Shown: positions 11,100 through 13,673 of the stretch, piece after piece | How positions within the stretch are numbered: position 1 is the first letter of the stretch | Layout of the letters: every line of letters begins with the position of its first letter | Source of the DNA: an uncultured Holophagaceae bacterium | GTDB taxonomy: Bacteria > Acidobacteriota > Holophagae > Holophagales > Holophagaceae | DNA: 64,000 nt | NCBI GenBank assembly: GCA_903937385.1 | Contig: CAIZZF010000026.1 | Span: forward strand, 248,001-312,000 | Direction: 5' to 3' | Translations under genes and position numbers: made by a program | The notes under the pieces: generated by a model | The model's input: the letters and a program-made list of their open reading frames with translations, nothing else | What the model was told of the DNA's origin: nothing | The model's database searches: none

Positions 11100-11929
<830 letters not shown>

Positions 11930-12086
11930 GCAGACTCCTCGAAGGGTCAAGGGTACCCCAGGCATTGACACTAAAAAATCTATCTTTGCGTCACGGGGGG
12001 CCACCCAATGCTATGAGATGTGCTCAGGGGACCTGCGACTCAGGCAGGCCTGGCGGGAGTAGAATCCTGGCAACCCCGGAGGCCCC

Positions 12087-12299
12087 ATGGCCCGCAAGCG
12101 TGGCACTGGCATCCCTGGCCTGTCCTTCTCCTGGCGGCGCGCCCTGGGAATCTCCCAGGCCCAAGCCCGCCTCTCCCGGCAGATCGGCATCCCGCTTTCC
12201 CGCAGCGGGCGGCAGCGGAAGCTGGGGAGGATGGGCGGCTGCTGCGTGCCTCTGCTCTTCGCGGCTGGGGTGCTGAAGCTGTTGGGCTGGCTGGTCTAA
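12087..12299 (+). CDS. Small basic protein of unknown function
   Basis: Seventy residues: a basic N-terminal part (MARKRGTGIPGLSFSWRRAL, RLSRQIGIPLSRSGRQRKLG) and a C-terminal hydrophobic segment (GGCCVPLLFAAGVLKLLGWL) that could be one membrane helix. ATG at 12087 is preceded by GGAGG at good spacing, which with the ordered basic/hydrophobic pattern supports a real gene. I recall similar short SFSW-RALGIS proteins as uncharacterised entries but can give no function. It stands alone between the divergent desaturase gene and the tRNA-repeat region. Confidence 0.6.
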   Translation: MARKRGTGIPGLSFSWRRALGISQAQARLSRQIGIPLSRSGRQRKLGRMGGCCVPLLFAAGVLKLLGWLV

Positions 12300-12302
12300 G
12301 CT

Positions 12303-12599
12303 GGGGCCTCGCTGGTTCGATTCCAGGAATATCAAGAATCCAAGGGGGACCGGTAGGCCCCGGGGGGGTCGCTGGTTCGATCCCAGAAGCATCAACAAAC
12401 CAAGGGGGGCCGGTTGGCCCGGGGGGGGGAATCGAACCGCACCCAGCTTTGCCGGTTGCCGGTCTGCTTCGGCGCGCCATTCAGGCGCGCCTCGGGCAGC
12501 CCACTCGCTGGTTCGATTCCAGAAACAGCAACAAACCAAGGGGGGCCGAATGGCCCCCCTTGGTTTGTTGGTGCACCCGACTGGAATCGAACCAGCGAC
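12303..12599. repeat. Inverted tRNA T-arm/terminator cassettes beside tRNA-Arg
   Basis: On the plus strand TCGCTGGTTCGATTCCAG occurs at 12309 and 12505, and with one change at 12369. Each copy is followed by six or seven variable bases and a CAACAAACCAAGGGGGGCC-like trailer. These match the T-arm plus 3' trailer of the adjacent minus-strand tRNA-Arg but in opposite orientation and without the acceptor 3' strand. The last unit and the tRNA end form a near-perfect long palindrome (12505-12599: 18-bp outer arms, 19-bp inner arms). A further inverted piece GGAATCGAACC lies near 12428. Confidence 0.85.
12536..12563 (-). terminator. Terminator of tRNA-Arg
   Basis: CCAAGGGGGGCC-(4-base loop)-GGCCCCCCTTGG, a 12-bp perfect stem. 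On the minus strand it lies 5 bases past the encoded CCA end and is followed by TTTGTTGCTGTTTC. The same palindrome is the core of the inverted T-arm cassettes. Confidence 0.8.
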
Positions 12600-12645
12600 C
12601 TCTGGCTTCGGAGGCCAGCGCTCTATCCAACTGAGCTACGGGTAC
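12569..12645 (-). tRNA. tRNA-Arg (anticodon CCG)
   Basis: The minus strand folds as a standard cloverleaf: acceptor GTACCCG/CGGGTGC (one U-G pair), D-arm GCTC/GAGC, anticodon stem CTGGC/GCCAG with loop CTCCGAA giving anticodon CCG, variable AGGTC, T-arm GCTGG-TTCGATT-CCAGT, discriminator A and an encoded CCA. It reads CGG arginine codons. Its first 19 bases and upstream DNA are duplicated at 12797-12879 and its T-arm region is copied in inverted orientation downstream. Confidence 0.95.
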
Positions 12646-12879
12646 GGATCACCGTGGCAAGCACGGCCCTCCATCATGGCTTCGAATGGGCTTTCGTTCA
12701 AGCTCGGGCCTCCAGCCAGCGCTCCTCCGCCTGACGGACAGCGCCTCGCGCTGCCCTCCCGCTCCTCGCTTTGCTCGCTCGCGGAGGCGGAGCCTCCCAA
12801 CTGAGCTACGGGTACGGATCACCGTGGCAAGCACGGCCCTCCAACATTGCTTCGAATGGGCTTTCGCTCAAGGTCGGGC
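12627..12879. repeat. 83-bp direct duplication of the tRNA-Arg 5' end flanking a hairpin element
   Basis: 12627-12709 and 12797-12879 match at about 79 of 83 positions. Copy 1 includes the first 19 bases of the tRNA and its promoter; copy 2 is a detached remnant. The 87-bp DNA between (12710-12796) is GC-rich, with hairpin CAGCGC-CTC-GCGCTG, a CGCTTTGCTCGCTCGCGG segment and the end GGAGGCGGAGCCTCC. Its layout parallels the insert at 8506-8608. Confidence 0.85.
12673..12701 (-). promoter_or_regulatory. Candidate sigma-70 promoter of tRNA-Arg
   Basis: Minus strand TTGAAC (12696-12701), a 17-base spacer and CATGAT (12673-12678). A transcript would start near 12666, about 20 bases before the mature 5' end. 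In the duplicated copy the boxes read TTGAGC and AATGTT, as expected for a decayed duplicate. Confidence 0.55.
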
Positions 12880-12893
12880 TGAATCAGCAGCGC

Positions 12894-13673
12894 TCAGCTC
12901 CGCCCGCCGACCATTCTTCGCCGGACACTGCCATTGGTGCCGGCGAAGTAGCGGCGGACGCCCTGGGTGATGGCGTCGGCCACCTGGGCGCGGAAGGCGG
13001 CGTCCTGGAGCTTCTTCTCCTCCTTGGGGTTGGAGATGAAGGCGACTTCGACCAATACCGCAGGCATGGCGGCGCCCCGCAGGACGATGAAGGGGGCCTG
13101 CTTCACGCCGCGCTCCTTGATGCCGGCCAGCTGGTTGAGCTGCCCCTGGAGGGCCACGGCCAGCCGCTCGGAGTCCTGCAGGTAGGCCTTCTGGGCCAGG
13201 TCGTCCAGGATGCTGGCAACCACACTGTCCGCGCTGCCAGGGGGCGCTCCGGCCCCGGCGTTTTCCGCCGCGGCGACGTCGTCGTTCTTGCCCTTGGCAA
13301 GGCTCAGGAAATAGACCTCCGACCCCCGCGCCGCCTTGGCCCGGGCGGCGTTCAGGTGGAGGCTGATGAACAGGTCCGCGCCCTGCTCGTTGGCGGCCTT
13401 CGCCCGATCCCAGAGGGGGATCAGCGAATCGTCCTCGCGGGTGCAGACGGCCTCGAAGCCTGCCGCTTCCAGCTTGGCTGAGACGACCCGCGCCAGCTCC
13501 AGGGCAGCGGTCTTTTCTTTCAGCCCCTTGGACCCCCGGGCGCCGCCATCCTCGCCTCCATGACCTGGGTCCAGCATCACCTTCAGGCGGGCCGCCGGTC
13601 CCTGGGGTTTGGGAACCTGGGCCCAAGACAGTAGGCTGAAGGTGGCGAGCAATAGGCTCGGGAGTCGGATCAT
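12894..13673 (-). CDS. N-acetylmuramoyl-L-alanine amidase (Amidase_3)
   Basis: Exported zinc amidase that cleaves the peptide stem from peptidoglycan, 259 residues. Signal peptide MIRLPSLLLATFSLLSWAQ. Zinc/catalytic motifs: DPGHGGEDGGARG (His), the Glu region KEKTAALELARVV, SLHLNAA (second His) and the C-terminal VEVAFISNPKEE with the catalytic Glu. This is the bare catalytic domain without an AMIN or SPOR domain, so targeting is not evident. Its ATG (13673) shares the tetranucleotide CATG with the hisS start on the other strand, so the genes diverge with overlapping start codons. No good Shine-Dalgarno precedes this ATG. Confidence 0.93.
   Translation of the reverse strand: MIRLPSLLLATFSLLSWAQVPKPQGPAARLKVMLDPGHGGEDGGARGSKGLKEKTAALELARVVSAKLEAAGFEAVCTREDDSLIPLWDRAKAANEQGADLFISLHLNAARAKAARGSEVYFLSLAKGKNDDVAAAENAGAGAPPGSADSVVASILDDLAQKAYLQDSERLAVALQGQLNQLAGIKERGVKQAPFIVLRGAAMPAVLVEVAFISNPKEEKKLQDAAFRAQVADAITQGVRRYFAGTNGSVRRRMVGGRS

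Follow-up and report, generated by a model that had tools for sequence, protein, structure and literature searches.

A structured repeat behind Geothrix tRNA genes with arms matched to the T-arm of the host tRNA

Organization of the tRNA-Arg(CCG) locus

The window, that is the whole stretch of 64,000 nucleotides analysed here, belongs to a genome of the genus Geothrix (Holophagaceae) and carries on its minus strand a tRNA-Arg(CCG) gene (12569..12645; ARAGORN and Rfam RF00005, 68 bits), flanked by an N-acetylmuramoyl-L-alanine amidase gene and a fatty acid desaturase gene, one on each side. The T-arm of this tRNA lies at 12581-12598. The features described below, the palindromic repeat excepted, are placed on the same minus strand, the tRNA-sense strand, which is also that of the element, and are given in the direction of the tRNA. 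A terminator-type hairpin (12526..12573; arms 12526-12547 and 12552-12573, 95% complementary; predicted fold -35 kcal/mol) overlaps the CCA end of the tRNA and occupies the interval between it and the element. It is followed by antiT 1 (12505..12522), the reverse complement of the host T-arm, which matches its own tRNA at 17/17 positions and constitutes the 5' arm of the folded element. The 3' arm of the outer stem is T' (12428..12438, GGTTCGATTCC), a direct copy of the T-loop recognised from the sequence and from alignment A1. Together with a core folding as a three-way junction, antiT 1 and T' form a structured element (12426..12520) which scores 104 bits with covariance model R1, has a DNA fold z of -4.5 and is also supported by covariation.

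Beyond T', the locus contains a second terminator copy (unit 2, 12389..12420; repeat D1/inverted repeat I2 and close-species alignment), antiT 2 (12369..12386), with one mismatch and the core lost behind it, a third and degenerate terminator copy (unit 3, 12333..12361; inverted repeat I3) and antiT 3 (12309..12326), the final antiT of the array, after which begins a flank common to genomes G060 and G023; antiT 2 and antiT 3 are both delineated by sequence, repeats and close-species alignment. The array thus consists of one full structured element and two decayed, core-less units. On the other side of the locus, a partial 5' copy (12797..12879; repeat D2), comprising the upstream region and the first ~19 nt of the tRNA, is 95% identical to 12627-12709, and a palindromic repeat of ~73 bp (12724..12796) lies at its junction.

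The sequence-only reading of this locus had described three plus-strand copies of the T-arm, each followed by the same trailer as the tRNA gene. The copies at 12309-12326 and 12505-12522 are indeed exact (TCGCTGGTTCGATTCCAG), while the one at 12369-12386 differs by one mismatch (TCGCTGGTTCGATCCCAG). Behind the 12505 and 12369 copies the trailer CAACAAACCAAGGGGGGCC is kept exactly, but behind 12309 it reads CAAGAATCCAAGGGGGACC, with 3 mismatches, so that the identity of the trailers is only approximate at that copy. The pairing proposed between the nearest copy and the tRNA 3' end was confirmed, with 18 nt (12505-12522 with 12581-12598) in addition to the 22-nt arm pair around the terminator. 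The structured core (12426-12520), T' (12428-12438), the partial 5' tRNA copy (12797-12879) and the genus-wide recurrence presented below are additions to that reading.

A structured element family at tRNA 3' ends

Recurrence of the cassette near other tRNA genes, which had been put forward as a check, was found by DNA search of relatives, the same arrangement being present behind other tRNA genes. On the tRNA-sense strand, a unit comprises a terminator, an antiT, a core of ~70 nt forming the three-way junction and a T'; it measures about 125-200 bp and contains no gene. The antiT sometimes extends to the reverse complement of the host tRNA acceptor too, and the freshest copies include the whole tRNA 3' end in the unit. 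The alignment A1 gathers 17 cores, including one whose three-way-junction fold has -56.3 kcal/mol and z = -5.9, and displays compensatory changes in 11/24 predicted pairs. The covariance model R1 built from it matches 5 copies in the window genome and is matched in 44/47 Geothrix genomes, with 1-16 copies each. Outside Geothrix, matches were limited to four other genera of the family, with a few genomes in all and one of them marginal, and a search of the other families in the class returned zero matches. A chance or local duplication accident, for which relatives lacking the cassettes would have spoken, is ruled out by this presence in 44 genomes, which is the opposite pattern; nor is the locus simply a decaying site, as had been suggested, the core being kept with compensatory changes genus-wide.

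A pattern scan retrieved the element in the named genomes of Geothrix fermentans, G. limicola, G. rubra, G. campi, G. paludis, G. oryzisoli, G. terrae and G. fuzhouensis. Pattern matches in Jiangella, Cellulomonadaceae, Thermoanaerobaculia, Akkermansia, Rhodopseudomonas, a haloarchaeon and others lack a tRNA and were attributed to chance by model score. A known RNA family was rejected, as in an Rfam scan of 11900-13000 with 4227 families the gathering score was reached by the tRNA alone, and no description of the element was found in the literature searched (open-licence papers).

Within the window genome, 6 of the 42 tRNA genes have a downstream inverted T-arm copy with no more than 2/16 mismatches and a seventh has 3, bringing to 7/42 the tRNA genes followed by an antiT; the same census on upstream controls gave two matches, both tRNA-Ser rows, which excludes chance as the source of these inverted copies. 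The placement of 108 copies relative to tRNA genes showed that the start of the first unit is usually 10-90 nt downstream of a same-strand tRNA, with later units in tandem, and that the hosts are Thr-CGT, Pro-CGG, Pro-GGG, Pro-TGG, Arg-CCG, Arg-TCT, Asn-GTT, Met-CAT and Asp-GTC. At all the loci examined except L027 the element follows either a tRNA gene or a tRNA 3' end. Most loci without a complete tRNA present either a tRNA truncated by the contig end or the displaced 3' part of a tRNA, the break, due to other insertions, lying in the anticodon loop or T-loop. Such fragments, starting from the anticodon loop or the T-loop, retain terminator and element at L064, L074, L113, L099 and L102, indicating tRNA genes split by other integrated DNA. 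L027 consists of two copies head to head flanking a terminator, an arrangement which may be an assembly artefact. Inverted tRNA fragments in Geothrix should be annotated as a repeat family and not as chance occurrences.

Four nearly identical tandem units with a 126-bp period follow a tRNA-Arg(TCT) at L107 (G024:C38:7445-7918). An extra hairpin (e.g. CCTCGCGGCGCATGCGCCGCGAGGATCT) is found between antiT and core at L034, L075, L103, L088 and L045; the presence of such insertions at several tRNAs makes the junction behind antiT look like an insertion hot spot.

Arms matched to the host tRNA and the folded strand

The trait that is novel in this family is that its arms equal the T-arm of their own host tRNA. 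Matches between antiT and own tRNA reach 15-17/17 positions in 64/68 first units, and 0/100000 shuffles of the partners gave a total as good as the one observed. In the four unmatched first units the antiT is missing at the expected place, and at L034, L103 and L088 another hairpin is inserted there. Among copies behind the same isoacceptor with a species-variable T-arm, 113 informative positions carry the variant of their own tRNA, 1 carries the alternative and 4 carry neither. T' also tracks the host, reading TTCAAAT in the Met and Asn copies; at Arg-TCT, T' can be GAGGCC while antiT fits the GAGTCC of the tRNA, so that the relation between tRNA and antiT is the primary one. Conversely, the core tree, which rests on few columns, only weakly follows tRNA identity (39 changes vs 53 when shuffled) and genome (67 vs 79), suggesting that cores are exchanged between loci while arms stay local. 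Some process holds the arms in match with their own tRNA even as the repeat spreads from one tRNA gene to another. For short structured repeats of bacteria the usual explanation is a fixed hairpin on which a transposase acts, whereas here the arms vary with the host tRNA, down to variants between species, and the core is common.

In 144 aligned copies, all 24 modelled pairs (24/24) display a compensatory change, double-change cells number 489 vs 143 in shuffles and paired cells amount to 94.8% vs 26-42% when slid, counts that lean towards the model since the alignment was fitted to it. The strand can be deduced from the wobbles: 149 cells are G.U on the tRNA-sense strand vs 42 on the other strand, these latter being A.C cells when read on the sense strand. 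Similarly, 47 deviations of antiT from the tRNA keep sense-strand pairing and 14 break it, the majority of all deviations being GAACC to GGACC/GGGCC; neither these nor the wobble cells are phylogenetically independent. Judged by these substitutions, the strand that folds is the tRNA-sense one, as RNA or single-stranded DNA.

This makes unlikely the plus-strand small RNA, a mimic of the 3' portion of a tRNA, that the sequence-only reading had envisaged. Each antiT does read on the plus strand as a T-arm with a terminator behind, but pairing is kept on the opposite strand and the commonest drift, to GGACC/GGGCC, breaks the plus-strand T-loop motif while preserving the sense-strand wobble. We consider such a mimic barely credible.

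The same observations bring in a cis-acting RNA element, which is the main rival of the explanation preferred below and which we retain as a tentative possibility, on the unlikely side. Transcription past the terminator would allow antiT to capture the T-arm and the tRNA to refold into a long hairpin, silencing or marking the read-through transcript, with T' in the core competing for antiT; the element would have spread due to its usefulness. The predicted folding of the window transcript agrees with this scheme: up to the terminator the T-arm is not engaged with antiT, and once antiT is included the prediction switches from the native tRNA to a T-arm:antiT helix running through the terminator, the full-length fold reaching a modelled -146.2 vs -134.0 kcal/mol for the pieces folded apart. 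As the ViennaRNA fold of the tRNA alone is not the textbook cloverleaf, these predictions should be relied on for nothing beyond the switch to antiT, by which a read-through transcript could lose the tRNA fold. The sense-strand bias of wobbles and of antiT deviations, the tracking of the tRNA T-arm by antiT even when T' differs (Arg-TCT) and the location at tRNA 3' ends (L027 excepted) are also in favour of an RNA function. Against it, a strong terminator precedes antiT at most tRNAs, although tRNA-Arg(TCT) has no separate one in between; the element is dispensable, as three Geothrix genomes have no match and most tRNAs of each genome have no antiT; it tolerates arrays, loss of the core and a 73-bp insertion into the core loop; and some intact copies lie behind promoterless displaced tRNA fragments. 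Further extended, this reading would define a class of tRNA-specific switches, in which a downstream antisense of the own T-arm would co-evolve with the tRNA, inactivate read-through transcripts, spread and re-adapt to a new host tRNA, a proposal that we regard as doubtful. Structured sequence in a tRNA 3' trailer is otherwise met in the tRNA 3' external transcribed spacer RNAs, of which 3'ETS-leuZ of E. coli is an example. The putative Geothrix trailers differ from these in being complementary to their own tRNA. They raise the testable question of bacterial tRNA 3' trailers controlling the folding of their own tRNA.

Entry, amplification and comparison with known systems

The integration or recombination site that had been proposed for this locus gains partial support from three sources, namely displaced tRNA 3' ends, an element-free orthologous locus and a variable number of units. 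A full tRNA 3' end, displaced to the far junction of the unit as with integrative elements, was found at L046 (Thr), L079 (Arg-CCG) and L101 (Met), and only decayed remnants of it at other loci. In G003, the terminator after the displaced tRNA-Thr end is homologous to the one that immediately follows the element-free tRNA-Thr of G002, a tRNA whose adjacent gene matches the usual Thr neighbour, and the tRNA-Thr of G003 now has a different terminator; compared as sequences, the two loci fit with entry at the T-loop of a segment made of 3' end, terminator, antiT and core. An island inserted in the T' of G003 was also considered and a second T' was not found in the next 20 kb, which makes element insertion the preferred explanation, the flank being unique to G003 and the case thus falling short of proof. 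Finally, the window locus differs between three close species sharing both flanks: G060 has one core, G023 at least two, and the window one core with two core-less remnants.

The description itself is secure: anatomy, linkage to tRNAs, match to the own tRNA, conserved fold, array variation and displaced 3' ends at three loci. The reading of it that is best supported is a non-autonomous DNA repeat located at tRNA T-loops and amplified in tandem, in which template switching and/or selection keeps the arms in register, a proposal in which our confidence is evenly poised. Units would enter at the T-loop, or arise by tandem duplication across it, the tRNA 3' end being restored on entry as with tRNA-targeting integrative elements; they would then multiply in tandem and be exchanged between tRNA genes. 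The acting form would be the folded non-template (tRNA-sense) strand, and the T-arm copies would be matched to the host either through template switching between the inverted repeats or through selection for pairing, or through a combination of the two. Template switching is described as creating and maintaining RNA hairpins (PMC8794818). Whether template switching or selection for pairing sets the register of inverted repeats beside essential genes is a testable question raised by this family. Several observations stand against a mobile repeat: no transposase or recombinase is tied to the element, neither excised nor circular forms were seen, the displaced 3' end is clean at three loci only, and the same tRNAs are occupied in many species, as vertical inheritance of a useful structure would equally produce. 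Moreover, the wobble bias points to selection on the folded strand, against a purely passive repeat.

Replication accidents without mobility could instead account for these features through tandem-inversion duplications formed by template switching at the terminator palindrome, followed by slippage and homogenisation. The succession of T-arm, antiT and T' is in direct-inverted-direct order with both joints palindromic, the arms are homogenised, and a different palindromic repeat of the genus likewise lies between long partial gene duplications. Quasipalindrome template-switch products and tandem inversion duplications similarly combine local inverted and direct copies joined at palindromes with homogenised arms. 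However, the joints are not purely local in Geothrix: the one homologous core, conserved across tRNAs and species, did not originate afresh at each locus, and the different terminator that accompanies displaced 3' ends (L046) indicates imported sequence. We hold this explanation to be unlikely.

Very unlikely is the origin of the element as a scar of larger tRNA-targeting islands or prophages, of which it would be the former attachment region. In Geothrix, tRNA genes are hot spots for islands and show displaced 3' fragments, and displaced 3' ends do occur at unit ends; nevertheless, where such an island is present the element remains attached to the old, displaced 3' end and does not come with the island, and a scar would not retain compensatory folding at many loci. 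The phage and plasmid collections contain no matching element, and three exact pattern matches in viral contigs do not include a model match, so that a phage or plasmid carrier was rejected. The element does resemble the tRNA-targeting integrative elements that use a tyrosine integrase at the T-loop sublocation, by its putative entry at the T-loop, the restored 3' end and the displacement of the old one. It differs from them by its size of 125-200 bp, too small to encode an integrase, and by carrying an inverted T-arm copy that stays in match with its host tRNA.

Compared with other known systems, the element partly resembles REP-type repeats and attC sites as well as these integrative elements, and each of the three likenesses breaks down on one or more of the defining features tested. 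With REP, BIME and REPIN sequences and their RAYT it shares being a short, structured, non-autonomous and family-restricted bacterial repeat, the known ones being spread by an enzyme acting in trans. Unlike them, it is found in 1-16 copies at tRNA 3' ends (L027 excepted) and not as a dispersed, high-copy extragenic repeat, and it has host-tRNA-specific arms and a three-way junction instead of a simple hairpin. The corresponding Y1 transposase (PF01797) is absent from the window genome and from 42/47 Geothrix genomes, and the REP/RAYT hypothesis was rejected on this basis. At L092 (G056:C1:2192230-2192586), an IS200-type Y1 transposase gene lies a few hundred bases behind the tRNA-Met element; having five identical copies in G056, it is probably an unrelated insertion.

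Integron cassettes and their attC sites offer another likeness, with a folded inverted-repeat site, tandem units beside a fixed receptor sequence and folding conserved on one strand, as shown for the Geothrix element by covariation and strand bias. But the unit has no gene, and its outer boxes are of the TTCGAAC/GTTCGAA type and change with the host tRNA, instead of being RYYYAAC/GTTRRRY. Full integron integrases are encoded in 29/47 Geothrix genomes (430-471 bits in most), for example G041:C7:3575-4519 and G020:C1:166045-166989 besides those of 27 other genomes, and no paper on Geothrix integrons was found in the open-licence literature searched. A full integron integrase is absent from the window genome (G000), where TIGR02249 remains below cut-off. 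G017 and G054 have a full IntI and no element, a pattern showing that the integrase does not track the element. An integron origin was consequently discarded on the boxes, the ordinary Geothrix attC (GCCTAAC...GTTAGGC) and the presence pattern, despite IntI in 29 genomes. Repeats of this attC type occur in L183, L185 and L187.

The 73-bp palindromic repeat is a separate, dispersed repeat of Geothrix, distinct from the element. At L022, L011, L012 and L038 it replaces the loop of the long hairpin of the core, leaving the stem intact. In other species, the unit with the partial 5' tRNA copy (of the 12627-12709/12797-12879 type) is in tandem at L003 and L005. Relatives of the 73-bp repeat lie between long direct repeats at L202, L209, L208, L211, L200 and L207 (around 1350-1750). 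These direct repeats, of 65-119 nt and 87-95% identity, resemble the ends of host genes (uvrA-like in L207), which suggests that the pattern of insertion with partial gene duplication also exists at protein genes.
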